Source: Lactiplantibacillus pingfangensis
GTDB lineage: Bacteria; Bacillota; Bacilli; Lactobacillales; Lactobacillaceae
Direction of reading: 5' to 3'
DNA: 64,000 nucleotides
NCBI RefSeq assembly: GCF_005404945.1
Contig: NZ_BJDG01000006.1
Coordinates: 1 to 64,000 of the forward strand
The translations under genes were made by a program, and so were the position numbers. Every line of letters starts with the position of its first letter. Within the stretch, counting starts at the first letter, position 1. Shown here one piece after another: positions 7,025 through 43,606 of the stretch. The notes under the pieces are model-generated. The model had not been told where the DNA came from. It searched no databases and saw only the letters and a program-made list of their open reading frames with translations.

Positions 7025-7247
7025 GTTTCAGCCCCCTATGTATTCGGTTACATTTATATCATACCTTAAATTCCAGCTGCTCAACGCTTTTGATTAGAAA
7101 TAAAAACTAGCTAGTGCCGCTTAAACGCCGGACTAACTAGTTTCATACGTTATTGACTGAAGGTTGAAAGGACAAAAGGGCTCGTAAACACTGTCATATA
7201 GGCAACAGGAACTTCCAAATCAGTGGTGATCCCGCTCCAGCATGCAA

Positions 7248-7391
7248 AATCGCTGTGCTATGGTGGGACTGTCCCAGCCACAGTACGGTCTGGAACTTCG
7301 ATTCAAAGCCGACAAACCGCGTCTTTGAATCGCCCTGTAAGATTAGGCGGCCTAGAACGCCGGCCAATCTTACCAACACAGCACAACGATT
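7248..7391 (+). repeat. Module A of element E1: multi-stem structured unit
   Basis: The outer stem AATCGCTGTGCT (7248-7259) pairs with AGCACAACGATT (7380-7391). It encloses TGGGACTGTCCCA (a 13-nt palindrome), a GATTCAAAG/CTTTGAATC stem and a TAAGATT/AATCTTA stem with inner GGCGG/CGCC pairing. The same architecture recurs at 16865-17010 and 43161-43321. The strand is that on which the fold is described; which strand is transcribed, if any, is unknown. Confidence 0.75.
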
Positions 7392-7439
7392 CTGCCTGCT
7401 TCCGCTAAACCTAGCCTAAGAACGCTTAAACTAGCTGGA

Positions 7440-7613
7440 AGTCGCCGCTGATAGCATCGGTCGTGTTGGTGGCGTTGGGACGGCATGTTTCTTGCCGGCG
7501 TTACGCCACGGACGGTCTGGGACACTTGCGATTTGTGCAAGGGTTCCAGGCGAGGTCCAAGACGCTTCTCAGGCTTGACCCGGTCCCACGGCCGCATGTT
7601 ATCAGTGGCGACT
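7440..7613 (+). repeat. Module B of element E1: 174-nt multi-branched unit
   Basis: The outer stem AGTCGCCGCTGATA (7440-7453) pairs with TATCAGTGGCGACT (7600-7613). A second stem is CGGTCGTG/CACGGCCG. Internal hairpins include TGGCGT (7470-7475)/ACGCCA (7503-7508), CTTGC (7525-7529)/GCAAG (7537-7541), and CAAGAC.../...GGCTTG. Five copies of this module occur in the window, all 170-174 nt long. Confidence 0.78.
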
Positions 7614-7703
7614 GGAAGCGGTCACGTCAACTAATTTCCATGCCCTAATCATTGATATGGCAGTAGTTATTAGCAATTTTGGTCTTTCAACCTTTAGTTA
7701 TTG

Positions 7704-7775
7704 AGCAAAGGTTGAAGAACGAAAATCACTAATAAACGCTGTTTTACCAGCACATTGGTAACGAAAAGAGATCAA
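7704..7775 (-). repeat. End fragment of the structured element family (inverted)
   Basis: AAAGGTTGAAGAACG and the following roughly 60 bp match, in reverse complement, the right arm of the 11828-12276 copy (shared CACTAATAAA and ACATTGGTAACGAA). It abuts the TATTG target duplication of E1, so E1 apparently landed next to an older remnant. Confidence 0.55.
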
Positions 7776-7785
7776 ATTTGTTAAT

Positions 7786-8406
7786 TTACTTATCCTCACA
7801 ATCAGCATAGTAAGCAGCCTTTTGCTTCTCCCAGTAATCTCGATCTTGTGTGGTAATTTCCCGCAAGACATGACATGGATTGCCAACCGCCACGACACCG
7901 TCTGGAATATCCTTCGTCACAATTGACCCTGAACCGATAACGACATTGCTACCAATCGTGACACCGGGATTAACTACCACGTTGCCGCCAAACCAAACAT
8001 TATCCCCAATCGTGATGGGCAGGCCATATTCTAACTGTTCTGCGCGAATTTCGGCATCAATCGGGTGACCAGCCGTGTATAGACCCACTCGTGGTCCCAT
8101 GAAGACATTGTTGCCAATCGTGATTGGCGCCACATCAATAAAAATCGCATCATAATTAGCGTAAAAGTTATCCCCAATCGTGGTATTACTACCATAATCA
8201 GTATGAAATGGGGGTTCTAAATAACCATTTTGACCAATTTTATTAAATAATTGTTTTAATAGGTCGCTGCGGTACGCACCCTCGCCCTCCGTCGTTTGAC
8301 TATAGGCCCGTGCTAATCGCTTGCCCCGCCGCATTTCACGCCCTAGCTCGGGATCATCGGCGATGTATAGCTCACCAGCTAACATCCGTTCTTTTTGCGT
8401 TTTCAT
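7786..8406 (-). CDS. Maltose/galactoside O-acetyltransferase family protein
   Basis: A 206-residue left-handed beta-helix (hexapeptide repeat) acetyltransferase of the Maa/LacA type, moving acetyl from acetyl-CoA to a sugar hydroxyl. The N-terminal Mac domain is visible (KERMLAGELYIADDPEL), followed by repeats such as ITIGDNVWFGGNVVVNPGVT and VTIGSNVVIGSGSIVTKDIP. The catalytic His is in YTAGHPID. The C-terminal VVAVGNPCHVLREI is characteristic. GGAGGG lies upstream of the ATG. A second, diverged copy is found at 12870-13439. The acceptor sugar is not known. Confidence 0.9.
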   Translation of the reverse strand: MKTQKERMLAGELYIADDPELGREMRRGKRLARAYSQTTEGEGAYRSDLLKQLFNKIGQNGYLEPPFHTDYGSNTTIGDNFYANYDAIFIDVAPITIGNNVFMGPRVGLYTAGHPIDAEIRAEQLEYGLPITIGDNVWFGGNVVVNPGVTIGSNVVIGSGSIVTKDIPDGVVAVGNPCHVLREITTQDRDYWEKQKAAYYADCEDK

Positions 8407-8637
8407 AAAATAATCAGCCCTCCACTTATTACAAATTCAATACCTGTTAAAAGTTAACCACAGCGAGATAGCGATTTCAACGTTGGGTAGGCCCATTTCT
8501 AAAAGCAGTTTGGGCCGTTTTGACACCCCAAAATAATTTATGCTGACAGGTCGGTGAATCTTTTAAGTTTTTTTATCCCCCCAATCCCAGGTAGTCGTAT
8601 ATAATAAGAGTTATACACACTTAAGGGAGCGAAAGCT

Positions 8638-9258
8638 GTGAAAACATTTAAAAGTATTATGAGTTGGGTTCTGCCAATCCTGATTGGGCTCGGGTTGGCC
8701 CTATTAATCAAGCAGTTCTGGTTCACCATGGTCCGTGTCGATGGCACCTCCATGCAACCTAATCTGCAAAATAATGAACGGGTCGTCGCCTTCAAGACGA
8801 GTAAAATTAAGGCCGGATCGGTCGTTGTCTTTAATGCGTATGGCTTAGATCCAGATCAAACGTCTAAAGACGCCGTTTACGTTAAGCGGGTCATCGGCAT
8901 GCCTGGGGATACCGTTCGCTACACGAGTAACGGTAAATTATACGTCAACAACAAACTAGTTAAACAAAGCTACTTAAAAGATAATTATCAACAGACTACT
9001 GGTTCGTTTATGGCTAACAGCCATAGCAAATTCACTGGCTGGGATTTAAATAGTTTGAGCAGTAACCAAGATGGCTGGCAGACGAAAGTCACCACCAATA
9101 AAGTTCCTAAGGGCTCATACTTCGTGCTTGGTGATCATCGGAGTGTTTCCAACGATGGCCGTTATTGGGGCTTCGTTCCTAAGAGCAAAATGATTGGGGT
9201 CGTCAAAGCTTGGCCTTGGCAAAACCGCAAACAGTATATTAATAGTTTTCAACCGTAA
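8638..9258 (+). CDS. lepB: Signal peptidase I
   Basis: A type I signal peptidase of 206 residues that removes signal peptides from exported proteins at the outer face of the membrane. One N-terminal membrane helix (about 8-30) is followed by box B GTSMQP with catalytic Ser38. The general base Lys83 lies in VYVKRVIGMPGD, and box E GDHRSVSNDGRYWGFV is present. The start is GTG with AGGGAG nine bases upstream; a TATAAT-like box is at 8600. It is transcribed alone and divergently from the acetyltransferase gene. Confidence 0.93.
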   Translation: MKTFKSIMSWVLPILIGLGLALLIKQFWFTMVRVDGTSMQPNLQNNERVVAFKTSKIKAGSVVVFNAYGLDPDQTSKDAVYVKRVIGMPGDTVRYTSNGKLYVNNKLVKQSYLKDNYQQTTGSFMANSHSKFTGWDLNSLSSNQDGWQTKVTTNKVPKGSYFVLGDHRSVSNDGRYWGFVPKSKMIGVVKAWPWQNRKQYINSFQP

Positions 9259-9269
9259 TAATGACTGAT

Positions 9270-9309
9270 AAAAGCGCCGCCACAATTTAATGTGACGGCG
9301 CTTTAGTTT
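9270..9309. terminator. Bidirectional terminator between signal peptidase and membrane protein genes
   Basis: AAAGCGCCGCCACA (9271-9284) pairs with TGTGACGGCGCTTT (9291-9304), 13 of 14 positions, flanked by A- and T-rich runs. The two genes are convergent here. Confidence 0.8.
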
Positions 9310-9324
9310 ATCCACAGTGGATAA
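9308..9324. promoter_or_regulatory. Palindromic DnaA-box pair
   Basis: TTATCCAC-A-GTGGATAA is a perfect 8-bp palindrome around one base. It contains a consensus DnaA box (TTATCCACA) on the plus strand and a one-mismatch box on the minus strand. It is part of a wider run of such boxes to about 11001. Confidence 0.5.
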
Positions 9325-9333
9325 CTTTTTTAA

Positions 9334-9804
9334 TTAAACCAACTTGTTGCTTCGGTGATCCTTAACCCAAAAATAACCACAAACGATCGGACTGACCAAG
9401 ACAAAAATCACGGCCATCAAAATATTCTTGAAAAAGTTAATAAACTCATCCATAAAATCACTCTTAGCTTCTACTTGTGGTGTCAAAGCTGTTGGCACTG
9501 GTTTGGGCTTCGTTCGCTTCACTGGCGCCGACCATGTGTGCCCAGAGTCTTGAATGATTTGTTCATCATCTGGTCGCGTCGATGGTGTTTCCTTAGGCTT
9601 TCGCCGCCAAACTTGAAAGACTTTTGGCCAACGATACTTAATTATTGGGAACAACACCAGTGCACAAATAATGCTATAGATGACTAGTGGATTAAACTCT
9701 AAAATGATGCGATTGACGGTTTGACGTGCAGAAAAGAACATGATGATAAATACCGTAATGGCGCCATAAAACCAACTACTGATTAAATTACCCGCTCGCC
9801 ACAT
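9334..9804 (-). CDS. Hypothetical membrane protein, three predicted helices
   Basis: Not recognised. The 156 residues show two N-terminal membrane helices (LISSWFYGAITVFIIMFF and PLVIYSIICALVLFPII). A basic, Pro-rich cytosolic linker follows (about 66-115, with KPKETPSTRPDDEQ and KRTKPKPVPTA), then a last helix (ILMAVIFVLVSPIVCGYFWV). It is the last gene of a compact group of four minus-strand genes with nearly abutting ends. TTAGGG lies three bases before its ATG, inside the intergenic gap of five bases. Confidence 0.7.
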   Translation of the reverse strand: MWRAGNLISSWFYGAITVFIIMFFSARQTVNRIILEFNPLVIYSIICALVLFPIIKYRWPKVFQVWRRKPKETPSTRPDDEQIIQDSGHTWSAPVKRTKPKPVPTALTPQVEAKSDFMDEFINFFKNILMAVIFVLVSPIVCGYFWVKDHRSNKLV

Positions 9805-9809
9805 TTACC

Positions 9810-10268
9810 CTAACCACCCTTCACATTTTGTGCTAAGCGCACCATACTTTTACACTGAATCCCATTCTCATAAATTGGTTGTGAATAGTTATCCACAAAA
9901 TAATTCACCCAGACGGCTGATAGGTCAAAACCGGCCCGTTGATAGAGCGCTAATTGCCGCAGTGAGGAGTTACCGGTACCAATTTGAAGTTGTTCACAGC
10001 TTGGGTCCTGTTGACAACTTTTGATCACCAGTTGTAACATCGTCTTTGCAATCCCACGATGTTGATAACTTTCTGCCACGGCAATCGCCATAATTTCTTT
10101 CACACCGACTTTACGCTGTTTCAAAACCAAAACGCCGACAATTTGGTCATCTAATTGGTAACCATAAATTGTGGCGTTTTCCAAGGACTGTTGAACGCGT
10201 GACCAATCTGGATCTGCTGACAATAATAAGTCTCTCGGCGCTTGGTCAGCGCTAATCGTTATCATCAT
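9810..10268 (-). CDS. GNAT-family N-acetyltransferase
   Basis: A 152-residue single GNAT domain that transfers an acetyl group from acetyl-CoA to an amine. The acetyl-CoA loop is seen as VAESYQHRGIAKTML (motif Q/R-x-x-G-x-A, about 84-98), preceded by EIMAIAV, with LYQRAGFDLS as the closing motif. Its ATG overlaps the stop codon of the preceding membrane-protein gene (ATGA), so translation is coupled. Substrate unknown. A consensus DnaA box lies inside the coding sequence at 9889-9897. Confidence 0.85.
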   Translation of the reverse strand: MMITISADQAPRDLLLSADPDWSRVQQSLENATIYGYQLDDQIVGVLVLKQRKVGVKEIMAIAVAESYQHRGIAKTMLQLVIKSCQQDPSCEQLQIGTGNSSLRQLALYQRAGFDLSAVWVNYFVDNYSQPIYENGIQCKSMVRLAQNVKGG

Positions 10269-10522
10269 CGTGATTGCCGTTTCACGGCGCGACGTTGAAA
10301 GCCATTACCCCAGCAAACATACGGCACAACCACTGCCACAATTGCTAAGGCATAGTCCGCAACAGTCAAATTAGCCGCATTCATCACGACTAAATAAGCA
10401 AGCACGAGCGTCCAAAGAATGGGTACGATCCCACCGACCCAAAAGTAGCGACTTGCTGAAAAAACAAATTCCTCTAGGATAAAAATAACAATTGCAATAA
10501 TGCCCAGTATGATTAAGCTCAA
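10265..10522 (-). CDS. Small membrane protein
   Basis: Eighty-five residues, mostly hydrophobic, with three predicted helices (LIILGIIAIVIFILEEFVF; VGGIVPILWTLVLAYLVV; YALAIVAVVVPYVCW) and a basic tail (RRAVKRQSR). It begins with TTG, supported by TAGGAG about ten bases upstream. Its stop overlaps the start of the GNAT gene. Family not recognised. Confidence 0.75.
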   Translation of the reverse strand: MSLIILGIIAIVIFILEEFVFSASRYFWVGGIVPILWTLVLAYLVVMNAANLTVADYALAIVAVVVPYVCWGNGFQRRAVKRQSR

Positions 10523-10546
10523 AAAAATCGTCTCCTAAACCCAAAC

Positions 10547-10852
10547 TTACTTCTGTTTAAGCTGTTTTAACATATCCACAAAACGCCCAACTTGACAGTT
10601 TTCCACATCTTCAGCTGAATAATAAATAATCATCTTTTGACGTTGTGCTGTTGATAAGTTGGCTTGTGACCCAAAATAAACTAAATAAACGGCTTCATCC
10701 GTTTTAGCTAAGGTTTTACCATAATCTGTATCTAAAGTAACCGTATAATCCGTACCTAATTGTTCGCTCAACGCGCTGATAAACCCTTGGATTTCCTTAG
10801 TTGTAACTGTTTCTTGTCCAGCAACAACACTGGTGACAACATAAACTTGCAT
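10547..10852 (-). CDS. Hypothetical 101-residue protein
   Basis: Not recognised. A compact alpha/beta soluble protein with no signal or membrane segment. Strands (QVYVVTSVV, YTVTLDT, AVYLVYFG) alternate with helices (IQGFISALSEQLG, VGRFVDMLKQLKQK). The start has GGGG nearby. It is the first gene of the four-gene minus-strand cluster running down to 9334. Two near-consensus DnaA boxes fall within it (10572-10580 and 10599-10607). Confidence 0.7.
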   Translation of the reverse strand: MQVYVVTSVVAGQETVTTKEIQGFISALSEQLGTDYTVTLDTDYGKTLAKTDEAVYLVYFGSQANLSTAQRQKMIIYYSAEDVENCQVGRFVDMLKQLKQK

Positions 10853-11001
10853 GACGACAACCCCGTTATGATTAATTTTATTTTATGACTCAATTCCTTA
10901 TCCACACTATCGCAGATTTACAGCAATCGCAAGCGTAGACTTATGCACAAGGCAAAAGGCCTTCTCAACGAATTGTGAGCTTGTCCACAGTCTTGTCCAC
11001 A
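10572..11001 (+). promoter_or_regulatory. Cluster of DnaA-box sequences
   Basis: Within 430 bp, all on the plus strand, are ATATCCACA (10572), TTTTCCACA (10599), the consensus TTATCCACA (10898), TTATGCACA (10941) and two TTGTCCACA (10981 and 10993). Further consensus boxes lie at 9308 and 9889. Several are in the 112-bp gap between the 101-residue gene and the phosphatase-like gene. This could be a DnaA-binding or titration site; binding itself is inferred. Confidence 0.45.
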
Positions 11002-11594
11002 ATCGTCACTGTGCTTGGTGCCAGTTGTTCAGCGGTCGCTGGTTGTCCAGTCAATTCGAACCGCAACTTGCGTAAAATGACGGGGTCAACAATGACTAAG
11101 GCCCGTCCATGATCTGGTGTGGCGTCAGTGACTTGAGTCAACCCAGCTTGATATCGTTGCCAGAACTCATCACCGCTCTCAGCCAAACTATCAACATCAT
11201 GATCATGAATTAAATTTTGAATTTCAGTTGGGGTCTGATCTGCTTCAAAGGCCGCAACGGTTGGATAACCTAATTTTGTCGCAAACCCTGACCAAACCGC
11301 CGCCCGTTCAAAGCCTTCAAACCCGCCATAAAACGGTGCCCGTAATGCGGCACTTTGTTGCAGCTCAAGTTGGGTTGCCTGGGCGTCAAGAATCGCCCGC
11401 CCAGTTTGTGCGCTCCGACTCGTATCGCTGGCGAATGCCGTATCAAATTTAACCGTGGCTAATTGTTGTCCCAGTCCTTGACTGGCTTCCAGACCAGCCG
11501 CGGTCAAAGGTGTCCCGCTCCATCCCTGAAAGCGATCAAGTTGGTCAAAGTAAGTTGTTCCAGTCACAGCTAAATACAAAGTGATAGTTTTCAT
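10965..11594 (-). CDS. Histidine-phosphatase (phosphoglycerate-mutase) fold protein lacking catalytic residues
   Basis: A 209-residue protein clearly of the phosphoglycerate-mutase-like family: FDQLDRFQGWSGTPLTAAG, ASDTSRSAQTGRAIL and the general spacing all fit. The catalytic N-terminal motif (normally RHG in LVRHGET) reads AVTG in YLAVTGTT. The second catalytic His region (normally SHG) reads IVDPVIL. Both phosphoacceptor and second histidine are therefore missing, so it is unlikely to be a phosphatase; a binding or regulatory role is possible. Codon use looks normal and the frame is intact, so this is not simple decay. It is a lone gene whose upstream side is next to a mobile element. Confidence 0.85.
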   Translation of the reverse strand: MKTITLYLAVTGTTYFDQLDRFQGWSGTPLTAAGLEASQGLGQQLATVKFDTAFASDTSRSAQTGRAILDAQATQLELQQSAALRAPFYGGFEGFERAAVWSGFATKLGYPTVAAFEADQTPTEIQNLIHDHDVDSLAESGDEFWQRYQAGLTQVTDATPDHGRALVIVDPVILRKLRFELTGQPATAEQLAPSTVTIVDKTVDKLTIR

Positions 11595-11680
11595 GTTGTG
11601 GTCCTACTTCCGTTTATTTTATCCCCCAATCATAGCATAAAAGCGAGGCGCCCACCGGTTTCCTCGCTTTTAAATTGAAA

Positions 11681-11835
11681 ACTAAAGATGAAAACACAAA
11701 AAAATCGGAAGCACTGTCATGTCAGCAATGCACACTTTAAAATTAGAGTCATGTTAAGCGCTCCGCCAGTCCTAATTAACTGGAAGTGGTCGCCCTCAAT
11801 TAGTAACTCTCATCTTGTGACCTTTTAACTAAAAG
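11681..11835 (+). mobile_element. Short deletion form of the structured element family (E2a)
   Basis: The left end ACTAAAGATGAAAAC resembles the family terminal repeat, and the right end near ATCTTGTGACCTTTTAA resembles its reverse complement. The interior keeps the left arm (GTCAGCAATG, GCGCTCCGCCAGT) but lacks modules A and B. It is followed at once by the left end of the next copy. Confidence 0.5.
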
Positions 11836-12276
11836 GTTGCAAGATAGCTAGTGGCTATTAATCTTAGTGTAGCAGTATTCACATAAAAAATCTTACTCAC
11901 GGATAGCCAACGAAAGCATTTAGAAAGTTCATAACATTGCCGATTGGCTCAATGATTTTCAAGAATCAAATCAATTGTTTTAGTACTAGTCACTTTATAA
12001 CCATTAACCTAGCTGGAGGGCGTCGCTGATTGCATCGGACGTGGAATTCCCGTTAGAGCGGCGTTTTTTTGCCGGTCTTACGGGACGGACGGTCCGGGAT
12101 AGTTGCGATTTTTGCAACCATTCCGGGCGAAGGCCAAGACCGCTCCTCAGGCTTGGCCTGGTCCCTCGTCCGCATGTAATCAGCGACCCCCGGAAGCGAC
12201 AACTTTGACTTATCTTCGTTACCAATGTATTGATACAACAGTATTTATTAGTGATTTGTGTCTTTCAATCTTTAGA
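11828..12276 (+). mobile_element. Structured mobile element, B-only copy (E2b)
   Basis: It is bounded by ACTAAAAGGTTGCAAG on the left and CTTTCAATCTTTAG on the right. Module B occupies 12018-12191 (174 nt). Its outer stem GGGCGTCGCTGATT pairs 13/14 with AATCAGCGACCCCC. Internal stems TCCCGT (12048-12053)/ACGGGA (12080-12085) and GTTGC (12102-12106)/GCAAC (12114-12118) differ on both sides from the other copies, yet pairing is kept. No clear target duplication was found. Confidence 0.7.
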
Positions 12277-12285
12277 TCCTTAATT

Positions 12286-12341
12286 AAAAATCGACAAGGT
12301 TACCCACCAGTATCTCGCGGTAACCTTGTCGATTTTTTTTA
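12286..12341. terminator. Strong terminator downstream of the universal stress protein gene
   Basis: AAAATCGACAAGGTTACC pairs perfectly with GGTAACCTTGTCGATTTT around a 14-nt loop, with T-runs on both strands. It separates the stress-protein gene from the mobile element. Confidence 0.85.
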
Positions 12342-12782: not shown

Positions 12783-12869
12783 AATCAATGTCCTCCCCAA
12801 TTGGTTAAAATTTAGACTGATTACTTCATGGTCAATTTCATTCTCAACGACTGCGACGCCCTTGTCAAC

Positions 12870-13439: not shown

Positions 13440-13569
13440 ACTGAACTTCCTTTATCAGAATTATTTAGTCCCTGAAAAATCTAAAACTGGTCACGCTTGC
13501 TATTTAAGCATACCACATTGCCCCAAGTTGCTGTATGATGACCCTATTCAATTAAGGAGAGGATTCATC

Positions 13570-14430: not shown

Positions 14431-14444
14431 AAAAGAGGGTTTAG

Positions 14445-16140: not shown

Positions 16141-16152
16141 ATTATGGCCTTC

Positions 16153-16771: not shown

Positions 16772-17118
16772 ACTAAAGGTTACAAGTAAAAAAGGGACGT
16801 GAACAAATCCATGTCAGCAATGGTCACTCCTAAATTAAACTTGTAGTGAGCGCTCCGTCAGTCAGAATCGTTGTGCTATGGTGGGACAGTCCCAGCCAAA
16901 GGACGGTCTGGAACTTCGATTCAAAGCCGATAACCCACGTCTTTGAATCGCCCTGTAAGATTAGGCGGCCCAAAACGCCGTCCAATCTTACCGACACAGC
17001 ACAACGATTCAGCCTGACTCCGCTAAGCTTAATAACTAACCGTTAGGACTGAAATCTGTATAGGCCGTTTATTGAAACAGTGGGACTTACTCACAAATTT
17101 TATTCTTCAACCTTTAGT
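16772..17118 (+). mobile_element. Structured mobile element, A-only copy (E3a)
   Basis: A 347-bp copy with ends ACTAAAGGTTACAAG and CTTCAACCTTTAGT. Module A at 16865-17010 has a perfect 13-bp outer stem GAATCGTTGTGCT/AGCACAACGATTC, the palindrome TGGGACAGTCCCA, and the GATTCAAAG/CTTTGAATC and TAAGATT/AATCTTA stems. Module B is absent. Flanking pentamers (ATTTT and GCTTT) do not match, so the target duplication is lost or diverged. Confidence 0.75.
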
Positions 17119-17301: not shown

Positions 17302-17580
17302 ATTTAAAAAGGCTTGTAAGCACCACCAGATAATCAAAAATTAGAATCGTGCTAAGATATGGGACTATGCCTAGTTAATTAGCTGGAGGCTGCTACTGAT
17401 AGCATCGGTCGTGATGGTGGCGTTGAATCGGCGATTTTGGCCGATTTTACGCCACGGACGGTCCGGGACACTTGCGATTTTGGCAAGGGTTTCGGGCGAG
17501 GTCCAAGATGTCCTTGGCTTGGACCGGTCCCACGACCGCATGTTATCAGTAGCGGCCGGAAACATTAATTACTAATAAAC
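17302..17580 (+). mobile_element. Structured mobile element, B-only copy (E3b), right end eroded
   Basis: The left end ATTTAAAAAGGCTTGTAAG resembles the family end. Module B is 17388-17557 (170 nt). Its outer stem GGCTGCTACTGATA pairs with TATCAGTAGCGGCC, a different sequence from copies E1 and E5 but equally complementary. An inner hairpin ATCGGC/GCCGAT and a GGTCCAAG/CTTGGACC stem are perfect. The right terminal repeat is missing next to the malY stop codon. Confidence 0.65.
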
Positions 17581-17585: not shown

Positions 17586-18764
17586 TTAGAACTTTTCTGA
17601 ACTGGTTGCATAAGCGTCAATGCCCGCTTTCAGCCGCTGCAAGCCATCCGTCAATTCGGCCGTTGGACAAGCAACATTGATTCTTAGAAAATGTTTGCCA
17701 TTGCCACGATAGACATCGCCGGCCGATAAGAACAAGCCGGTCTCAGCCCGAATAAACGTCGCGAGTTCGTCAGCATCCGCGGCTACAGCGCTAATGTCCA
17801 ACCAAATCAGGTAAGTGGCCTGAGCCTCAATGACTTTGACCTGTGGTAAGTTAGCTCGAATAAAAGCTTGTAATTGGCGCTGATTAGCCGCAATCTTTTC
17901 CCGTAACTCAGCGACCCAAGCCTGTCCCTCCTGATAAGCAGCGAGGCTGCCTGGAATCGCAAATGAATTGGGTTCAGCTAATTCGTCGTTATTGATGGCG
18001 CGACTGACACGTTCACGAATTGCTTCATCAGGCATAATCAGTGTCGCCGCATGTAACGCTGCCACATTAAATGTTTTGCTTGGTGAAATACAACTGATAC
18101 TGTTGGCCGCCACTGGCTTGCTCAACGATGAAAATGGCGTATAGTCATGCCCATTTAAGGTTAAGTCACAATGAATCTCATCGGCTAACACTAGCACGTG
18201 ATGCTTCAAGGCAAGTTCACCAATTCGCTGTAAGTCGTCACGTGACCAGACAATCCCGATTGGATTTTGAGGATTACATAAAATCATCATGGTTGTCAGT
18301 GGTTCAGCCATTTTCTGTGCTAAGTCGTCAAAATCAATCGCATACTGACCATCACGTTCAACTAAATCACTGGACAACGTGTGTCTCCCGTTATTCTCAA
18401 TTGAATGATAGAAAATATTATAAACCGGTGCTTGAACCAACACATTGTCCCCAGCTGACGTCATTTTACGCACAATTGACGAGATTGCTGGCACGACACC
18501 GGTACAAAATAGCAACCAATCAAGTTGGGGCCGAAAATGGTGTGCCGTTGCCCACCAATCAGCGACTGCTTGATAGTAGTCAGTTGGAATCTCTTCATAC
18601 CCAAAAATCCCAAAGGCAGCGCGTTTTTTTAGTGCAGCGGTAATTTCAGGGGCAGTCTGAAAATCCATATCGGCAATCCACATAGGCAGTTCCCCAGGTT
18701 TAACGTTCCACTTGGCCGAATTGGTGTGTCGGCGATCAACGACCGTTTCAAAATCATACGGCAT
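17586..18764 (-). CDS. malY: MalY/PatB-type aminotransferase (cystathionine beta-lyase)
   Basis: A PLP enzyme of about 392 residues. The N-terminal MPYDFETVVDRRHTNSAKW and the MWIADMDFQ motif are typical of MalY/PatB. These enzymes cleave cystathionine or cysteine S-conjugates to a thiol or homocysteine, pyruvate and ammonia. The PLP lysine is in SPSKTFNVAAL, and the Asp-pyridine contact in VLADEIHCDL. FLRINVACPT near the end holds the carboxylate-binding Arg. The start overlaps the 3' end of the DUF3737 gene (ATG at 18764; a GTG at 18773 is also possible), so the pair is co-translated. Confidence 0.9.
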   Translation of the reverse strand: MPYDFETVVDRRHTNSAKWNVKPGELPMWIADMDFQTAPEITAALKKRAAFGIFGYEEIPTDYYQAVADWWATAHHFRPQLDWLLFCTGVVPAISSIVRKMTSAGDNVLVQAPVYNIFYHSIENNGRHTLSSDLVERDGQYAIDFDDLAQKMAEPLTTMMILCNPQNPIGIVWSRDDLQRIGELALKHHVLVLADEIHCDLTLNGHDYTPFSSLSKPVAANSISCISPSKTFNVAALHAATLIMPDEAIRERVSRAINNDELAEPNSFAIPGSLAAYQEGQAWVAELREKIAANQRQLQAFIRANLPQVKVIEAQATYLIWLDISAVAADADELATFIRAETGLFLSAGDVYRGNGKHFLRINVACPTAELTDGLQRLKAGIDAYATSSEKF

Positions 18765-19620
18765 GGCGCACACTGCTTTCGCTGTCCACTGAAATCACGG
18801 TCTGATTGGCATCAATTTCAGGATCATCCATAATAATTTGTTGAATGGCTTGGGCATGAATCTTGCCACTAATGGGATTCTTCACACTATCAATACTTGA
18901 AACGATGTCGGCGTCAATATTTTTGCAATATTCAAAAGCTAAATCCGTATTCAATAAGGTACAATTTTCGAGCGTCAGCCCATCCATGTAACAAAGTCCT
19001 TGATCACTTTCGATTGTACAGTTCACAAAACGCACATTCTTCGAATTCCAGCCTAAATATTCACCGATAATTTTGGAGTCATAGACCGTAACATTCTCGC
19101 AATTCCACAAAGCATCTTTCGTCATTAACGTGGCATTGTGAATTTCAATATTTTTAGCGCCATCAAACGCATAGTTGCCGACTAAATCAAAATCATGAAT
19201 TTTGATATTTTCACTATTCATGCCAAAATAGTCTCCCGCAGCCTGTACGTCATGAATCTCGATATCGCGGCTGTTCCACAAGGTTTCCTCGGCATGTGGC
19301 ATATGCACGTGGTCTAGCTTAACCCGACTTGCGCGCCGGAATAATTTAGGCGCTTGTAAGGTACTATTCGTAATCGTAATATCATCGGTATACCAAATCC
19401 CAGACCGTGACATTTCTTCGAAAATTGAGTTGTTAACCCGAATATGACGGCTATACCAAAGTGGATATTTCCATTTAAAAATTGATTGTTCCAACTCAAT
19501 ATTGCGACTTTCCTTTAATGGCGATTCACCGTCTGCAAAGGTGCTATTTTCAATATGAAGATCACGTGCTTTAAATAAAGCGCGTTCACCAGTGAGTAAT
19601 TGTTGATTAATAGTTTTCAT
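18754..19620 (-). CDS. DUF3737 family right-handed beta-helix protein
   Basis: A 288-residue protein built of roughly 20-residue repeats of the form N-S-x-h-x-h-x-N/S (ENSTFADGESP, RHIRVNNSIF, ARSKNIEIHNATL-like and NVTVYDSKIIG). They predict a pectate-lyase-like right-handed beta-helix. No signal peptide or obvious catalytic residues are visible. DUF3737 genes sit next to malY in lactobacilli, as here, where the coding sequences overlap by about 11 bp. This suggests a linked function, but none is known. Confidence 0.85.
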   Translation of the reverse strand: MKTINQQLLTGERALFKARDLHIENSTFADGESPLKESRNIELEQSIFKWKYPLWYSRHIRVNNSIFEEMSRSGIWYTDDITITNSTLQAPKLFRRASRVKLDHVHMPHAEETLWNSRDIEIHDVQAAGDYFGMNSENIKIHDFDLVGNYAFDGAKNIEIHNATLMTKDALWNCENVTVYDSKIIGEYLGWNSKNVRFVNCTIESDQGLCYMDGLTLENCTLLNTDLAFEYCKNIDADIVSSIDSVKNPISGKIHAQAIQQIIMDDPEIDANQTVISVDSESSVRHAV

Positions 19621-22381: not shown

Positions 22382-22439
22382 AAGAAAGGCACAGCCTTTT
22401 TTATAAATTACTTAAATAACGCGTCCTGCTAATAATCAA

Positions 22440-22530
22440 AGGTTGAAAGACGATAATCATTAACAAATGCAGTAGTACCGGCACATTAGTGACAAAAAGA
22501 AGTCAACGTTGTCGCCTCCGGACATTGCTA
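22440..22530 (-). repeat. End fragment of the structured element family
   Basis: AAAGGTTGAAAGACG and the next 80 bp match, as reverse complement, the right arm of the 11828-12276 copy (ATTAACAAAT, GGCACATTAGTGACAAA, GTTGTCGCCTCCGG). The structured modules are absent. 22531-22636 shows no gene. Confidence 0.6.
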
Positions 22531-34639: not shown

Positions 34640-34935
34640 ATTAAAGGTTACAAGTACAAAAAGAAACGTAAACGGAACGATATAAAACCCGGTTGCTCCT
34701 AAACTAAATTCGTAGTGAGCGCTCCGCCAGTTTAATCAGCTGGAGGTTGGGACTGATCACATCGGTCGTGATGGTGGCGTTACATCGGCTGTTTTTTGCC
34801 GACGTTACGCCACGGACGGACCGGGATACTTGCGCTTTTTGCAAGGATTCCGGGCGAGGGCCAAGACGCGCCTGGCTTGGACCAGTCCCACGACCGCATG
34901 TGCTCAGTCCCAATCGGAAGCAACCGCTATTTACA
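34640..34935 (+). mobile_element. Structured mobile element, B-only copy (E4)
   Basis: The left end is ATTAAAGGTTACAAGTAC with left arm GAGCGCTCCGCCAGT. Module B is 34745-34915 (171 nt). The outer stem GGTTGGGACTGATC pairs with GCTCAGTCCCAATC (one wobble, one mismatch), a third distinct sequence for this stem. TGGCGT/ACGCCA and ATCGGC/GCCGAC hairpins follow. The right terminal repeat is not recognisable before the MFS stop codon at 34942. Confidence 0.65.
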
Positions 34936-34941
34936 CTGAGG

Positions 34942-36450
34942 TTAACTCGGATGATGCGCCAACTTCGTGTGACGCTCAAAATGAACTCGTTTAGCTTGTT
35001 TCGGTCTGAACACAAAGATGTTCACTGCGACCCCGATCACCAGCAGCACAAACGCCAATGCCATGATGTGGTGCAAGCCGTTATGCAAAATAGCCCGCAT
35101 CACAGGTAACAACTTGCTTGGCAGTCCCTTAGCACTGTTCGCATCACTCAGTTGATTCATCATGTTCATCGAAATTTTACCGTCAGATTGTGCCACTCCT
35201 TGCGTTAAGGAATGGTTCAAAACGACACTATAAATGGATGACATGAACGTTTGACCGAGCATCCGCACTAACAAACTAAATGACGTCGCAATGGGCACGT
35301 CGCGGTGCGCAGCTTGTTGCTGGACACTGACTTGCAACACCGTAAAGCAAATCCCAATCCCACAGCCTTGAAAAGCACCGGCTAACAACAATAACCAGTA
35401 ATTCGTCTGCCGACCAGCAAGTGCCAACAAGCCCGCCGCAATCAACATGCCGACAAACCCAATCATCACCACGGTTCGCGTCGACCATTTACGTTCCAAG
35501 TTTGAACTCCACTGAGCACCCATAAAGTTCGTAATTGATCCGGGAATCTGAGTCACCCCGCCAATCACCGCGGTAGTCCCAAGTAGCCCCTGTGCCCACA
35601 TCGGCACGTAGACATTGAAGCCCACAAAGAAGCCATAAATTAGAAAGAACATCACGAACGAGGCCACCAAATAACGATTTTTAAATAAGCGACTCGGAAT
35701 AATCGGATCGGCGGCCCGCGATTCCGCCACTAATAAGCCAGCCAGCAACGCTAAAGCTAGGGCCATAATTGCCCCAACGCCAAGCAGTGGCAGTTTGCCA
35801 ATCATTTCAATGCCAACCAACAAACTCACTAGGCCAGTCGTCAATAAGGCGGCCCCGAGATAATCGACTTTTGACGCAGCCGCTTTAACCTTGGGCGCCT
35901 GATACAGCCACTGAATAATGGCAATTGAAGCTAAACCAATCGGCACATTGATATAAAAGACCCAGTGCCAACCAAAATTATCCACAATAAAGCCACCGAC
36001 TAATGGCCCAATAATTGCGGCGGTGCTAAAACTAGCCGTCACGTAGCCAAAAACCTTGCCTCGTTTAACCGGATCTTTATAAATTTCGGCATAGATGATA
36101 TATGGAATGGCGGTCATTCCACCACTCCCAATCCCCATAATGGTGCGCGCAATAATCAAGAAATAAATATTTGGCGCTAAGCCTTCAAACAACGCCCCTA
36201 AGACAAAAATCGTCGTTGAAATTTGATAGGCTCGTTTGTTCCCAATACGTTCACCGAGTTTGCTCCACAATGGGGTCGTCACCGCGCCGCCAAGTAAGAA
36301 CACAGCCACGATCCACCCCATCAGTTGAATCCCATGTAAATCACTAATAATTGCTGGTAACGCGGTACTAATAATCGTGCTATCTAAGCCATTCATCGCA
36401 TTTGACAGTAGCAACGCCACTGTCACGATCATGACAACTTTTTTCGACAA
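34942..36450 (-). CDS. MFS drug transporter, DHA2 (14-helix) family
   Basis: A 502-residue major facilitator of the EmrB/QacA type with about 14 helices. The helix 2-3 motif is LWSKLGERIGNKRAYQ, and motif C is GPLVGGFIVDNFGWHWVFYINVPIG. Such proteins export toxic compounds in exchange for protons. The leader at 36571-36708 contains stable hairpins and a terminator, so expression may be controlled by attenuation. A perfect TTATCCACA occurs inside the coding region. The 3' end is only a few bases from element E4. Confidence 0.9.
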   Translation of the reverse strand: MSKKVVMIVTVALLLSNAMNGLDSTIISTALPAIISDLHGIQLMGWIVAVFLLGGAVTTPLWSKLGERIGNKRAYQISTTIFVLGALFEGLAPNIYFLIIARTIMGIGSGGMTAIPYIIYAEIYKDPVKRGKVFGYVTASFSTAAIIGPLVGGFIVDNFGWHWVFYINVPIGLASIAIIQWLYQAPKVKAAASKVDYLGAALLTTGLVSLLVGIEMIGKLPLLGVGAIMALALALLAGLLVAESRAADPIIPSRLFKNRYLVASFVMFFLIYGFFVGFNVYVPMWAQGLLGTTAVIGGVTQIPGSITNFMGAQWSSNLERKWSTRTVVMIGFVGMLIAAGLLALAGRQTNYWLLLLAGAFQGCGIGICFTVLQVSVQQQAAHRDVPIATSFSLLVRMLGQTFMSSIYSVVLNHSLTQGVAQSDGKISMNMMNQLSDANSAKGLPSKLLPVMRAILHNGLHHIMALAFVLLVIGVAVNIFVFRPKQAKRVHFERHTKLAHHPS

Positions 36451-36570
36451 ACTAATTCCTCCAAATGACCACTGACTGGCTTCAATTAAAAACTAATTTT
36501 AAAATAATCGCTATCTACTAGATTACACTATTTTCTGAGACTAGCGGGGGTTATTTTCAGAAAGCGCCAC

Positions 36571-37235: not shown

Positions 37236-37309
37236 TCAACTCATCTCCAAAAAAGTTTTCATGAAAACAGCTTATTTCAATTGGCTCACTTTTTCAAAGA
37301 TTTTGTTTG

Positions 37310-39021: not shown

Positions 39022-39458
39022 TCGTCAATTTCCCCCAATGCTTGCGCGGCCGCGTGCCAAGCTAAAGTAGCACAGCGAATTCGGGTTGGAAATTCCGCCA
39101 CACTGCCTAACACCGCGGCTTCTCCCAACTGTTTCGTCCACTGTTCAGCCACTTTTTCACCGATCACTAACTTTGAAAACGCCTGAATTAATCGCTGGGC
39201 TTGTTCAACTGATTGGCCACTAAGCACATCTGTCATCACACTGGCCGAAGCTTGTGAAATCGTACAGCCCTGGCCGCTAAACCGAATACGGCTAATTTTT
39301 TCAGCTGTGACCTGTACTTGAACGGTAATCACATCCCCACAAGTGGGGTTGTTCAGTGTTGTCGCCGGCACATCGGCCAATTGACCATAGTGGTGCGGCG
39401 CACGCGCGTGTTCTAAAATCACCGTTTTATATAAATCGTTTAGTTTTAACAAACTCAT
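39018..39458 (-). CDS. sufU: Sulfur-transfer protein SufU
   Basis: A 146-residue IscU-like protein with zinc ligands in [20 protein letters not shown] and [11 protein letters not shown]. It carries the 18-residue insertion expected for Gram-positive SufU, which receives sulfur from SufS rather than acting as the main scaffold. It overlaps sufS and sufB by four bases on each side. Confidence 0.95.
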
Positions 39459-40678
39459 TGCTGAAAAAACTCCTTTACTGCTTGAAGCGCGGCCAAAAAC
39501 CGTGCAATATCGGCCGCCGAATTATAAAACTGGACACTGGCGCGCACGGTCGTGGGGACTTGTAAGACTTGCATTAATGGCTGCGCGCAATGATGACCCG
39601 CCCGCACTGCGACGCCGGCTAAATCCAACCCAGTCGCGACATCATGTGGATGAATGCCGTCAACGTTAAAGGCCACTACTGGGCCATGCTGGGCAACTTG
39701 CTGCGGACCATAAACGGTGACGTCAGGAAAAGTTAACAGCCCATTCAGCAGTTGCGCCGTTAATTGGCGTTCTTGCGTTTGAATGGCGGCAAAACCAAGC
39801 TGCTGAATATAAGTTAGCGCGGCCCCTAATCCAATCACCCCGCTAATATTTGGCGTCCCCGCTTCAAAGCGTTGCGGAATCGGCGCAAATTCAGTGTGTT
39901 CCCAAGTGACGTTGCTGATCATTTCACCGCCAAATTGTGCGGGTGTCAGCGTTTGTAACAACGCTAACTTACCATATAGGACGCCGACGCCAGTTGGTCC
40001 CAAGAGCTTATGACCAGAAAAAGCGTAGAAATCAGCATCTAAGGTTTGAACATTGACCGGTTGATGCGCCACCGCTTGGGCCCCATCCACGACAATGATC
40101 GCGCCATGCTGATGCGCTAACCGTGCGAGTTTTTGAATGGGACAGGTGACGCCTAAAACATTGGAACAATGGGCCACCGCGACAATTTTGGTTCGATCAG
40201 TAATTTGCTGTTGGGCGGACGCCCAATCAAGTTCACCAGTACTTGTCAACTGAATCACTTTGAGCTGAGCTTGCTTTCGTTGGGCTAATTGTTGCCACGG
40301 CACTAAATTACTGTGGTGCTCCAAAGCCGTTACGACAATTTCGTCCCCCGCTTGCAAGTTTTGTTCACCATAAGTTTGCGCGACCCAGTTCAGACTATCC
40401 GTCGTCGAACGGGTAAAGAATACACTCTCGCGTTGTGGTGCGTGAATGAACGCTGCCACTTGATCACGGACCGCTTCATACTGATCGGTTGCACGTGCCG
40501 CCAAGCTGTAGACGCCTCGGTGGACATTTGCATTATCGTGTAGATAGTACTGACTAATCGCGTCAATCACTGCCTGTGGTTTTTGGGTAGTGGCCGCATT
40601 ATCCAGATATGTTAACGGCTCACCGTTCATTTGGGTGTTCAATATTGGAAAATCGGCTCGTCGTTCACTAATGTTCAT
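39455..40678 (-). CDS. sufS: Cysteine desulfurase SufS
   Basis: A 407-residue class II PLP cysteine desulfurase. It opens ISERRADFPILNTQMNGEPLTYLDNAATTQKP. The PLP lysine is in AFSGHKLLGPTGVGVLYG, and the active-site Cys in RAGHHCAQPLM. It takes sulfur from cysteine and passes it to SufU. It sits between sufD and sufU, and its start overlaps sufD by 11 bp. Confidence 0.96.
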   Translation of the reverse strand: MNISERRADFPILNTQMNGEPLTYLDNAATTQKPQAVIDAISQYYLHDNANVHRGVYSLAARATDQYEAVRDQVAAFIHAPQRESVFFTRSTTDSLNWVAQTYGEQNLQAGDEIVVTALEHHSNLVPWQQLAQRKQAQLKVIQLTSTGELDWASAQQQITDRTKIVAVAHCSNVLGVTCPIQKLARLAHQHGAIIVVDGAQAVAHQPVNVQTLDADFYAFSGHKLLGPTGVGVLYGKLALLQTLTPAQFGGEMISNVTWEHTEFAPIPQRFEAGTPNISGVIGLGAALTYIQQLGFAAIQTQERQLTAQLLNGLLTFPDVTVYGPQQVAQHGPVVAFNVDGIHPHDVATGLDLAGVAVRAGHHCAQPLMQVLQVPTTVRASVQFYNSAADIARFLAALQAVKEFFQQ

Positions 40679-41963
40679 CCGTTAACCGCCTTTCAATCAA
40701 GCTGTTCAGTTCCGTTCGCAAGCGTTGTGAACGCAATTCCGTAATGACGCCAGCTAAAAAGCCCCGAATCACTAACCGTTCAGCAACCGGTTTGGGAATA
40801 CCACGGCTCAGTAAATAAGTCATCTGTTGCTCATCGACCCGACCCACACTAGCAGCGTGGCCGGCTTCGACATCATTTTCATCAATTAAAAGGATTGGGT
40901 CCGCATCACCACGTGCCTTGGAAGATAACATTAATAACCGATTCTCTTGATCGGCTTTAGCACCATGCGCCCCTTTGACAATATGTCCAATACCATTAAA
41001 AATCAGCGCAGCCGCATCTAAAATAATGCCACGCTGGATAATATTTGCTGTCGTTTTTTGACCATAATTAGTTACCCGGGTATCAATGCCTTGGGTCTGT
41101 TGACCAGTCGCAATCGCAATTGTTTTGACCTGCGCTTCCGAGCCACGACCTTTTAATTCTGTATCAAAATCCGCCACAACCCGGCCAGCATTCATTTCAG
41201 CCAGCTCCCAGTTCAGTCGGGCATCGGGTCCTAAAACCCCGCGTCGATTTAAATAGGCCGTCGTGTTGGCACTCAATGCATCAATTCCGGCGAAATCAAC
41301 GGTCGCATCGGCTTCAGCGATGACTTCAACGAGTAAATGCGCGATAGCCGCACCAGCCCCCAACGTTTTTAACCGTTGAATCACTTGTACACGACTGTTT
41401 TCAGCCGCAATCACTAAACTATGATTAAAAAAGTTTTGTGCCTGCCGACTATCCACATACTGCGTTATTTCAATGGGCGCTTTTAAGACCACGTTGGCTG
41501 GCACATACAGAAAAAAGCCATTAGTCATCAAAGCAGTATTCAGCGCCGTTAATTTATCATCACCGAGTTGTAGCGCTTTTTGCATTAAATAACGTTGCAC
41601 TAAGTCGCCATGGGTCTGAATGGCCGACCGCAAATCTGATAAAATGACACCTTGTTCGATTGCTTCTGTTGGCAGACTCAATTGTATGGTCGTGTCGCCA
41701 ACCGAATAGAACTGCTGGCCGGCACCTAAATCCGCGCTCGGTTCAGCACTCACTTGTTCAGTTGGTCGCGTAAAATCTTCTAATGGCCAGTCGGCATAGT
41801 TAATTTTTTCAAATTTTGGTAACGGTAAGCGCGCATAAACCGCCACGGCTTTTTCACGTAATGCCAATAGCCAGGCCGGCTCATGCTGCTGGCGAGAATA
41901 TTGCCGAACGGCAGTTAATAAGTTTGTTTGATCCAATAGTTCACACACCTCACTTAACGTCAT
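40668..41963 (-). CDS. sufD: Fe-S cluster assembly protein SufD
   Basis: A 431-residue SufD: N-terminal helical section (WLLALREKAVAVYARLPLPKFEKINY) and a beta-helix with GPDARLNWELAEMNAG, GRGSEAQVKTIAIATGQQTQGID and FNGIGHIVKGAHGAKADQENRLLMLS. It closes with the DVEAGHAASVGRVDEQQMTYLLSRGIP segment. It forms the SufBC2D scaffold with SufB and SufC. Coding sequences overlap on both sides, fitting one polycistronic mRNA. Confidence 0.95.
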   Translation of the reverse strand: MTLSEVCELLDQTNLLTAVRQYSRQQHEPAWLLALREKAVAVYARLPLPKFEKINYADWPLEDFTRPTEQVSAEPSADLGAGQQFYSVGDTTIQLSLPTEAIEQGVILSDLRSAIQTHGDLVQRYLMQKALQLGDDKLTALNTALMTNGFFLYVPANVVLKAPIEITQYVDSRQAQNFFNHSLVIAAENSRVQVIQRLKTLGAGAAIAHLLVEVIAEADATVDFAGIDALSANTTAYLNRRGVLGPDARLNWELAEMNAGRVVADFDTELKGRGSEAQVKTIAIATGQQTQGIDTRVTNYGQKTTANIIQRGIILDAAALIFNGIGHIVKGAHGAKADQENRLLMLSSKARGDADPILLIDENDVEAGHAASVGRVDEQQMTYLLSRGIPKPVAERLVIRGFLAGVITELRSQRLRTELNSLIERRLTDEH

Positions 41964-42744
41964 CGTCGGTCAACGCAACCGTTAACCCGAGTTCATCACG
42001 TAACCCAGCGTAGCCTTCTGCTTCTAGCGTCGAAGCCAATTCCGGGCCGCCAGTTTTGACGATCCGACCGTCCATCATGACATGAACATAGTCGGGCACA
42101 ATATAGTTCAATAAGCGTTGATAATGCGTAATCATTAAAGTGCCAAAATCAGGACCTTTTAACGAGTTAACCCCTTTAGCGACCACTTGTAAGGCATCAA
42201 TATCTAAGCCAGAATCAATTTCATCTAAAATCGCAAATTTCGGTTGAATCATTAGCAATTGTAAAATTTCGTTACGCTTTTTTTCACCGCCAGAAAAACC
42301 TTCATTCAAATAACGTTCAGCCATTGAATCCGACATATTTAATAAAGCTAAGTTGCGATCCAATTGCGCTAAAAATTCGGTCACCGGTTGCTGGTCATCA
42401 TCGGCACGCCGGGCGTTGATTGCCGCCCGTAGAAACTCAATATTCGTCACGCCTTTAATTTCAGCGGGATATTGCATGGCTAAAAACAAGCCTGCTCGGG
42501 CGCGTTGATCAATTGTTTGATCTAGTAAATTCACGCCATCTAATTGCACGCTACCACTAACTACCCGGTAAGCTGGATTTCCCATAATTGTTTCTGACAA
42601 GGTGGATTTACCAGTGCCGTTAGGTCCCATAATCGCGTGGGTTTCACCCGTTTTTAACGTTAAATTAACGCCTTTCAGAATCAACCGTTCCTGTTCATTT
42701 TCCGTCACAGCTACCTTTAAATCTTTAATGACTAATGTCGACAT
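41950..42744 (-). CDS. sufC: Fe-S cluster assembly ATPase SufC
   Basis: A 264-residue ABC-type ATPase, first gene of the suf operon. Walker A is MGPNGTGKST, signature GFSGGEKKRNE, Walker B FAILDEIDSGLD and H-loop MITHY. Its ATP cycle drives SufBD rearrangement. GAGGAAA precedes the ATG. A TATACT-like -10 lies at about 42835, but the -35 is not clear. The upstream gap ends in the full-length mobile element E5. Confidence 0.96.
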   Translation of the reverse strand: MSTLVIKDLKVAVTENEQERLILKGVNLTLKTGETHAIMGPNGTGKSTLSETIMGNPAYRVVSGSVQLDGVNLLDQTIDQRARAGLFLAMQYPAEIKGVTNIEFLRAAINARRADDDQQPVTEFLAQLDRNLALLNMSDSMAERYLNEGFSGGEKKRNEILQLLMIQPKFAILDEIDSGLDIDALQVVAKGVNSLKGPDFGTLMITHYQRLLNYIVPDYVHVMMDGRIVKTGGPELASTLEAEGYAGLRDELGLTVALTDDDVK

Positions 42745-43013
42745 TTAAGTTTCCTCATTTCTCACTAGACTACTTTATGTAGTTATCATTCTAGGGCCAA
42801 CCACTATCAGTGGTATTACAGCTAATAATATTAGTATACGTTATCTGCTGACTTTCCGGCGAAAGGATTGTAAACAAGTTAGTCTAGACAAACCCGCAGT
42901 TTACAGGTGTTAACATTTATAATACGACAATGAGGCGACAGCGTTTAACGACAAGTTCTGCTAGTTGCTTAGTCCAATCCTCAAGTCTGCTAACTATCTG
43001 AAAAATTTTTCAA

Positions 43014-43056
43014 ATAAAAAATGATGATTGGCAATTAGCACCATCATCATTATTTT
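43014..43056. terminator. Stem-loop terminator in the gap between sufC and element E5
   Basis: AAAAAATGATGATTGG pairs with CCATCATCATTATTTTT around a short loop. T-rich sequence occurs on both strands. It would isolate suf from transcription through the element. Confidence 0.6.
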
Positions 43057-43077
43057 TGACCAGTTAAAATTAGTAAT

Positions 43078-43606
43078 TAAAGATTGCAAGGACAAAAGAG
43101 CTTGTAAACACTGTCATATAGGCAACAGACACTTCCAAATTAGTGGTAATTCCGCTTCAGCAGGCAGAAATCGCTGTGCTATGGTGGGACAGTCGCAGCC
43201 ATAGTGCGGTCTGCAACTTCGATTTAAAGCCGATAACCCACGTCTTTGAATCGCCCTGTAAGATTAGGCGGCTAAGACCCGCCAGCCAATCTTACCGACA
43301 CAGCACAACGATTTCTGCCTGCTTCCGCTAAACCTAACCTAAAAACAGTTAAATTAGCCGGAAGTCGCCGCTGATCCCATCGGTCGTGAAGGTGGCGTTG
43401 GGTCGGCATGTTTCTTGCCGGCGTTACGCCACGGACGGTCCGGGACACTTGCGATTTGTGCAAGGGTTCTGGGCGAGGGCCAAGACGGTTCTCAGGCTTG
43501 ATCCGGTCCCACGGCCGCATGTTATCAGTGGCGACTGGAAGCGGCCCATGTCAACTAATCTTCATGCCCTAATCATTGACATGGTGGCAATGATTAGGGA
43601 TTTAGT
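43078..43606 (+). mobile_element. Structured mobile element, full copy E5 (modules A and B)
   Basis: A 529-bp copy very like E1. It is flanked by the 5-bp direct repeat TAGTA at 43073-43077 and 43607-43611. The left end is ATTAAAGATTGCAAG; the right terminal repeat is worn (GATTTAGT). Module A (43161-43321) has a 20-bp outer stem with one mismatch, CAGGCAGAAATCGCTGTGCT against AGCACAACGATTTCTGCCTG. Module B (43363-43536) is 174 nt with AGTCGCCGCTGAT/ATCAGTGGCGACT. A further solitary left end, ATTAAAGGTTGAAAG, begins at 43612. Confidence 0.78.

Follow-up and report, generated by a model that had tools for sequence, protein, structure and literature searches.

What are the folded non-coding modules that recur in a 64,000-nt stretch of the Lactiplantibacillus pingfangensis genome, how did they spread, and why is their fold retained? 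An initial annotation of this stretch (contig NZ_BJDG01000006.1, positions 1–64,000; hereafter, the window) described five copies of one such module, "module B", as a conserved folded RNA or single-stranded DNA and recognized no known family in it. Our analysis indicates that these modules belong to a real and widespread family of structured repeats, no description of which was found in the portion of the open-licence PMC literature that was searched. Three features absent from the initial annotation were revealed: the kinship of module B with a second module, "module A", the high copy number of the family, and the status of the modules as the cargo of a mobile element. Genomes, loci, and contigs of the samples are designated below by our G, L, and C numbers.

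Conserved fold of the module

Eight copies of the family were found in the window with a covariance model of class 1 copies: five class 1 modules, all on the plus strand, and three class 2 modules on the minus strand. The class 1 modules were located at each of the five places where modules of about 170–174 nt had been annotated, the extents given by the model being slightly wider. They aligned over 175 columns with a mean column identity of 87%, and the outer and inner stem variants that keep pairing were seen in this alignment as previously described. Their scores of 175–190 bits are no test of the model, since these five rows helped to build it. The class 2 modules, which were absent from model building, were recovered with 70–76 bits (E 1.9e-18 to 3.9e-20). 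A ninth match in the window (55820–55891, E 0.48) was at the level of chance. The E-values of the model are rough because its calibration was short. Mean identity was 63% among class 1 rows, 51% among class 2 rows, and 51% between the classes. By the covariance model, module A and module B form one family, module A being a diverged form that lies on the opposite strand; the existence of the five module B copies was upheld.

The module measures about 143–194 nt, typically about 186 nt. Its own plus strand forms a long closing stem, the P2 hairpin, and a short helix around the P3 and P4 hairpins. The outermost part is formed by the feet (AGC-GGA / GGA-AGC), inside which lies P1, a 13-bp stem of widely variable sequence and retained pairing. 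P1 is followed by a purine-rich internal loop, in many copies again with GGA opposite GGA, and then by a variable inner stem. The P2 hairpin holds an unpaired T.T, and the helix surrounding P3 and P4 is GGAC/GTCC, with CGA as the linker between the two hairpins. P4 has a bulged A, as well as CC/GG ahead of its loop. Conserved unpaired letters are also present in the module. Beyond the feet, information is lost within about 5 bases (TT on the 5' side and G(G/A)CAA on the 3' side; 118 flank pairs). Pairing of the P4 loop with the 3' tail in a pseudoknot was considered and dropped, as the two vary independently by eye in 123 rows. A coding signal was not found: 74 of 123 copies were open in some frame, scattered over six frames, compared to 322 of 615 shuffled sequences. 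A shorter subclass of about 143–163 nt (42–87 bits) was observed in G010, G012, G091, and G171, as well as at loci L100 and L116 of G011; the two latter copies have no normal P4 loop in the fitted alignment.

Covariation was analyzed with a MAFFT alignment of 32 module copies from 11 genomes, gathered by sequence search and independent of any structure. RNAalifold predicted 51 pairs in it, in 41 of which both sides had changed. For the named structure of 63 pairs, 91.2% of cells were paired in these 32 sequences (76.0% in shuffles), two-sided changes were found at 47 pairs (27.5 in shuffles), and the covariation score was 0.445 (0.159 in shuffles). Each of these measures was higher than in any of 500 shuffles, which do not preserve the relatedness of the sequences, and than in any slid control; slid controls gave a score of at most 0.103. 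The weakest helix, formed by columns 30–37 with 165–172, was 67% paired. In an alignment of 123 rows, which was fitted to the covariance model and hence leans towards the structure by construction, 61 of 63 pairs covaried, with a score of 0.652 against 0.186. Very strong covariation on both the unfitted and the model-fitted alignments demonstrates a conserved multi-helix fold of the module and supports the earlier proposal of a conserved folded single strand.

Regarding the strand that folds, G.T cells outnumbered A.C cells in the unfitted alignment (107 vs. 48) and in the model-fitted alignment taken without helix 3, both in class 1 (89 rows, 222 vs. 79) and in class 2 (34 rows, 100 vs. 27). 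This excess in both classes indicates that each module folds on its own strand. Folding energy was not used as an argument: the plus strand was more stable in 113 of 123 copies, yet shuffles gave 117 of 123.

No match to Rfam 15 at gathering was identified in the window or in the loci of ten relatives, except that two of the latter contain a T-box or a PreQ1 riboswitch at other positions. A search of Rfam to E = 10 around one element returned microRNA-like and similar chance matches only. The strong covariation, the lack of an Rfam family, and the lack of a description in the papers searched agree with the initial annotation, in which the modules were left unassigned. As side observations, a T-box leader (L067, 185–423) and a PreQ1 riboswitch (L066, 840–884) lie near copies of the family and are unrelated to it. 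The structured RNAs of Lactobacillales include Lacto-rpoB, lactis-plasmid, and Lacto-int (PMC2864571); the module is likewise a structured RNA candidate of this order and differs from them in having no Rfam 15 match.

Copy number, head-to-head units, and IS4-type ends

The genome containing the window had at least 125 matches at E 1e-3 (125 of 1037 candidates were scored, all of them matching). At least 149 matches were found in the near-complete genome G268 of genus g16, for which 150 of 1416 candidates were scored and weaker ones were seen besides. Within Lactiplantibacillus, 16 of 21 genomes, its own included, had matches, G001 having a single weak one (E 2.9e-4). In a sample of Lactobacillaceae, matches at 1e-4 were present in 49 of 251 genomes and in 10 of 40 genera. 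A sample of the order gave 17 of 395 genomes, 16 of which belong to the same family and one to another. These data demonstrate a wide dispersal of the structured repeat in many lactic acid bacteria. The single match outside the family f1 (G528, 49 bits; L266, 1362–1521) lies 14 nt past the 3' end of an open frame (1536–2966, minus strand) and possibly reflects lateral transfer. Named records with the consensus stretch included Lactiplantibacillus fabifermentans, L. daowaiensis, and a metagenome-assembled genome labelled uncultured Lactobacillus. Plasmid and phage records gave no blastn match at 1e-5, in a search that may leave out records near the genome of the window.

The usual unit consists of two modules head to head, with their 3' ends outward. 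The first table of copies comprised 112 of 152 hits and the 8 window copies, the other hits having been left out as weak shadows or duplicate hits to one place; in it, 34 of 37 neighbors within less than 1 kb were head to head. The same arrangement was found for 23 of 23 neighbors in 40 further loci of g4, g42, and g38, and for 15 of 16 among 145 of the 149 G268 matches, where a weaker plus copy intervenes in the exception. Such a pair was present in 13 of 14 loci of g42, 9 of 20 of g4, and 1 of 6 of g38. The gaps within pairs span 20–425 nt, and 11 of the 34 gaps in the first table are only 20–41 nt; some gaps contain, by eye, an apparent host terminator. An initial impression that elements take their orientation from the adjacent gene was abandoned, since the outward 3' ends in pairs largely account for it.

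A complete composite element of 541 nt (7157..7697, plus strand) was delimited in the window by its terminal inverted repeats (TIRs) and covariance-model modules, and the same extent was matched in other copies. Its order is as follows: left TIR (7157..7177, plus strand, 0 mismatches to CTRAAGGTTGMAAGNNNAAAA); the class 2 module, that is, module A (7233..7407, minus strand, 69.8 bits, E 1.9e-18); a 25-nt spacer; the class 1 module, that is, module B (7433..7619, plus strand, P1 arms at 7440–7452 and 7601–7613); and right TIR (7677..7697, minus strand, 0 mismatches). The target-site duplication TTATTGA precedes (7150..7156) and follows (7698..7704) the element. No frame of 90 or more codons was found in it, so no transposase is encoded inside.

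Searching the genome of the window with a 20-base end pattern gave 86 matches at up to 3 mismatches and none for the reversed control. TIR-bounded elements were about 290–610 nt long with target duplications of 7–9 bp, exact 8-bp ones being found in L006, L030, L036, and L229. Among the 27 TIR pairs listed, one was an insertion sequence (IS) itself, one spanned several elements, and some had no clear duplication. The same genome contained a 1460-bp IS with the same ends and two IS4-family transposase fragments (254 and 155 bits to NF049925 transpos_IS4_4). Ends of the CTAAAGGTTG(A/C)AAG type were present in elements of G000, G016, G020, and G268, in the IS of G000, G019, G008, and G017, and in one of two IS relatives of G020. 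IS ends in G019, G008, G017, and one of the two in G020 were 2 to 7 mismatches of 21 away. IS relatives occurred in 5 of 21 genomes of the genus, its own included, and four of these also had modules. A longer element with the same ends was not found by a strict pattern among the loci searched.

In G268, such ends (L229, 361–965) enclose a module on the minus strand (464–624) and one on the plus strand (701–886), with an exact 8-bp duplication. Seven copies of this subfamily were compared and proved alike over up to about 610 nt; in six of them, a second module adjoins on the opposite strand (35–46 bits), and in most copies other than L229 the left end is decayed. Thus, for a part of the family, namely the pair in Lactiplantibacillus and one subfamily of g16, the modules are shown to be the inside of a non-autonomous IS4-type element (miniature inverted-repeat transposable element, MITE). 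Judged from these ends and duplications, IS4-type movement is well supported for this part and unproven for the rest of the family.

Other mobilizers were considered and rejected. Genes for Y1 transposase (PF01797) were found in 13 of 21 genomes of the genus and do not track the family: they were absent from G004, G008, G013, G016, G018, and G020, which have 25–113 module matches, and among 11 of 20 Y1 loci scanned with the model, only one (L179) had a module fragment, at its far edge. The same is true of reverse transcriptase (PF00078; group II intron or retro-element), present in 9 of 21 genomes and absent from G004, G007, G009, G014, G016, G017, and G018, which have 59–125 matches. Single-strand insertion was considered through a chromosomal strand bias in G268, and none was found (34 plus and 42 minus copies in one half vs. 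34 and 35 in the other, the halves being set by contig coordinate with the origin not placed). A comparison of empty sites between G004 and G016 was also set aside, because the absences, where readable, were deletions leaving scraps. At site 7 (G004 C69 at about 88023 vs. G016 C100 at about 218411), the hairpin in G004 was gone except for its foot, as expected of a deletion at a palindrome.

Role of the fold

Positions of the copies relative to genes were counted with simple open-frame calls instead of annotation and mostly for best-scoring copies. With these calls, 112 distinct copies with a gene on both sides lay in 43 convergent, 60 tandem, and 9 divergent gene gaps. For 31 copies situated 60 nt or less from a stop codon, a terminator-like site was found in between in 6 cases and beyond the element in 19. 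In the window, the module 17381..17563 sits between the stop codon of the gene 17586–18773 (minus strand) and a terminator-like hairpin. An element was found behind the orthologue of this gene in G000, G006, and G007 among 19 loci; at the other 16 loci, the model finds no element there, and L158 has two across the gene.

The reading we prefer, with a probability of about 0.45, is that of a selfish repeat spread by IS4-type movement; the folded RNA form of its module would act at gene 3' ends, within read-through transcripts. The unit would be moved in trans by an IS4-family transposase recognizing the CTAAAGGTTG(A/C)AAG ends, as their sharing with the IS suggests. A transcript entering the unit from either side would read the near module in antisense and the far module in sense; as the modules point outward, a read-through transcript would contain, close to its 3' end, one RNA module able to fold correctly. 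This RNA module may act on 3'-end stability, processing, or termination, probably via a bound protein, and insertions behind genes would thereby be tolerable or useful, which would also account for the fold being kept after movement stops. While the fold and the spread are observed, the RNA-level function is inferred; a 3'-end RNA function appears to be the most plausible role of the module. The main reason for preferring the RNA level is the strand preference of both modules: because they occupy opposite strands within a unit, the folding of one and the same DNA strand does not explain both preferences.

The same strand preference bears on the possibility that the fold is needed for mobility only. 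Here, the transposase would recognize folded single-stranded DNA or an extruded cruciform, non-folding copies would leave no offspring, and covariation would reflect selection that acts on the lineage that transposes instead of on the host. Several findings are consistent with it: copy numbers that are high, dispersed, and lineage-specific; TIRs and target duplications; conserved feet next to a foot stem that varies and stays paired; and two G020 copies that are 99% alike over 296 nt, suggesting recent movement. However, opposite strand preference within one unit is compatible neither with transfer of a single strand nor with a cruciform that is symmetric, and Y1 transposase genes do not track the family. 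IS4-type transposition (IS10, IS50) uses double-stranded ends and is not known to need an internal fold. Pairing is, moreover, still kept in orthologous copies and diverged paralogues (see below), and we regard this explanation as a serious one that is nevertheless unlikely.

Upkeep of the fold was analyzed in 14 orthologous comparisons (G004/G016 and three g42 species), which share branches. Paired sites differed at 71 of 1715 positions (4.1%) and unpaired sites at 69 of 784 (8.8%). There were 25 losses or gains of pairing, compared to 37.3 (range 30–44) in random sets, and two-sided compensations numbered 3 against 0.8 (up to 4 in random sets). Class 1 paralogues of G181, G133, and G103 retained 84–91% of pairs vs. 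71–77% under random change; in G181 and G103, whose paralogues are about 72% alike and in which no IS4 relative was found, the values were 85–91% vs. 71–72%. The paralogues were picked by model score, which makes this test generous. Taken together, these comparisons make selection on the fold after insertion likely. They also argue against ordinary decaying MITE relics, a view under which a few master copies set the fold and most copies evolve neutrally: in orthologues, the frequency of differences at paired sites is about half that at unpaired sites, broken pairs are below expectation, and diverged paralogues retain pairs beyond what random change predicts. Nonetheless, many copies are truncated or solo, the deletions in G004 leave scraps, and the history of mobile elements clearly accounts for much of the copy number; shared branches, score-chosen copies, and some misalignment also soften the counter-evidence. 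We consider it improbable that the family consists of such relics.

The elaborate conserved fold and the conserved unpaired letters would also suit independently transcribed small RNA genes or trans-acting RNAs that transposition has spread. However, no promoter- or terminator-like conservation was found in the 118 flank pairs, and the 11 of 34 head-to-head gaps of only 20–41 nt leave little room for a promoter; we hold this explanation to be very improbable. A more far-reaching version of the 3'-end function is a regulatory RNA domain delivered by transposons: an IS4-type MITE would have placed one RNA module, bound by a single host factor, behind well over 100 genes per genome in several genera, transcripts from either side would obtain a sense module, and selection would then have kept the whole as a genome-wide 3'-end control network. 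We hold such a network to be unlikely.

Several observations weigh against the preferred 3'-end reading. The same lack of a conserved promoter or terminator beside the module belongs here as well. Antisense copies between tandem genes were in only slight excess over sense ones (35 vs. 25), and copies were found inside frames of at least 100 codons in 6 of 120 cases and, in G268, in 11 of 57. The head-to-head rule has exceptions: two same-direction and one convergent neighbor in the first table, further same-direction neighbors (L168, L229), and another convergent one (L223). Regarding movement, no IS4-type ends were found within 160 nt of 26 pairs (25 of g4/g42 and one of g38), although these genera retain the fold. 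The IS4 protein was present in just 2 of 17 genomes of other genera searched, G268 being negative, and G019 lacks module matches despite an IS that looks intact. Four sites occupied in one species of G004/G016 (1, 2, 5, and 7) gave no clean empty site, with scraps in three and the fourth unclear. In the orthologous comparisons, whose branches are not independent, changed pairs were unpaired in both orthologues 12 times against 5.2 expected, which may reflect misalignment. Finally, the copies analyzed were mostly best-scoring, and the larger alignments follow the structure by construction.

Related repeats and other copies in the window

Bacterial mobile repeats usually have simple palindromes or are not known to be under internal constraint. 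Like IS4-family MITEs, this repeat is short and transposase-free, with 7–9 bp duplications and ends resembling those of an IS4-type element present in the same and related genomes; it differs from them in its two strand-specific multi-helix modules with massive covariation and in the 26 inspected pairs of g4, g42, and g38 without such ends. The REP/BIME/REPIN repeats of enterobacteria and pseudomonads are 20–40 bp palindromes tied to Y1 transposase. They are likewise intergenic, of high copy number, found in inverted pairs, and scarce between divergent genes; in contrast, the modules described here are multi-branched, of about 186 nt, and their distribution does not follow that of Y1 genes. 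Modular structured intergenic repeats of a Gram-positive genome are also known as the BOX elements of Streptococcus pneumoniae, which appear to differ in sequence, fold, and modules. The attC sites of integrons may resemble the module as a folded strand behind genes.

In this family of industrial importance, 10 genera share a large, strand-specific multi-helix fold, and hundreds of natural variants make its structure readable from comparison alone. The module would extend the catalogue of structured RNAs appreciably and provides a direct test case for the idea that functional RNA domains reach gene 3' ends via short mobile repeats.

The remaining copies in the window are as follows. The class 1 module 12011..12197 (plus strand, 189.9 bits) is accompanied by a right TIR (12255..12275, minus strand, 2 mismatches). 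The class 2 module 16851..17025 (minus strand, 74.8 bits) lies between a left TIR (16773..16793, plus strand, 1 mismatch) and a right TIR (17097..17117, minus strand, 3 mismatches). The class 1 module 17381..17563 (plus strand) is 22 nt from the stop codon of the gene 17586–18773, and another class 1 module (34738..34921, plus strand) is 20 nt from that of 34942–36450 (minus strand); the latter element has a left TIR (34641..34661, plus strand, 2 mismatches), its right TIR not being found. The same is true of the pair formed by a class 2 module (43153..43330, minus strand, 75.7 bits) and a class 1 module (43356..43542, plus strand, 184.5 bits), with a left TIR at 43077..43097 (plus strand, 2 mismatches) and no right TIR found.

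An extra TIR-like sequence (22436–22456, plus strand, 3 mismatches) has no module nearby and is possibly a scrap of another element. The sequence 7704–7781 beside the complete element begins with CAAAGGTTGAAG, resembles the right end of the element, and is by appearance a remnant of a neighboring element; an inverted match of 79% connects 7707–7781 with 12199–12273.

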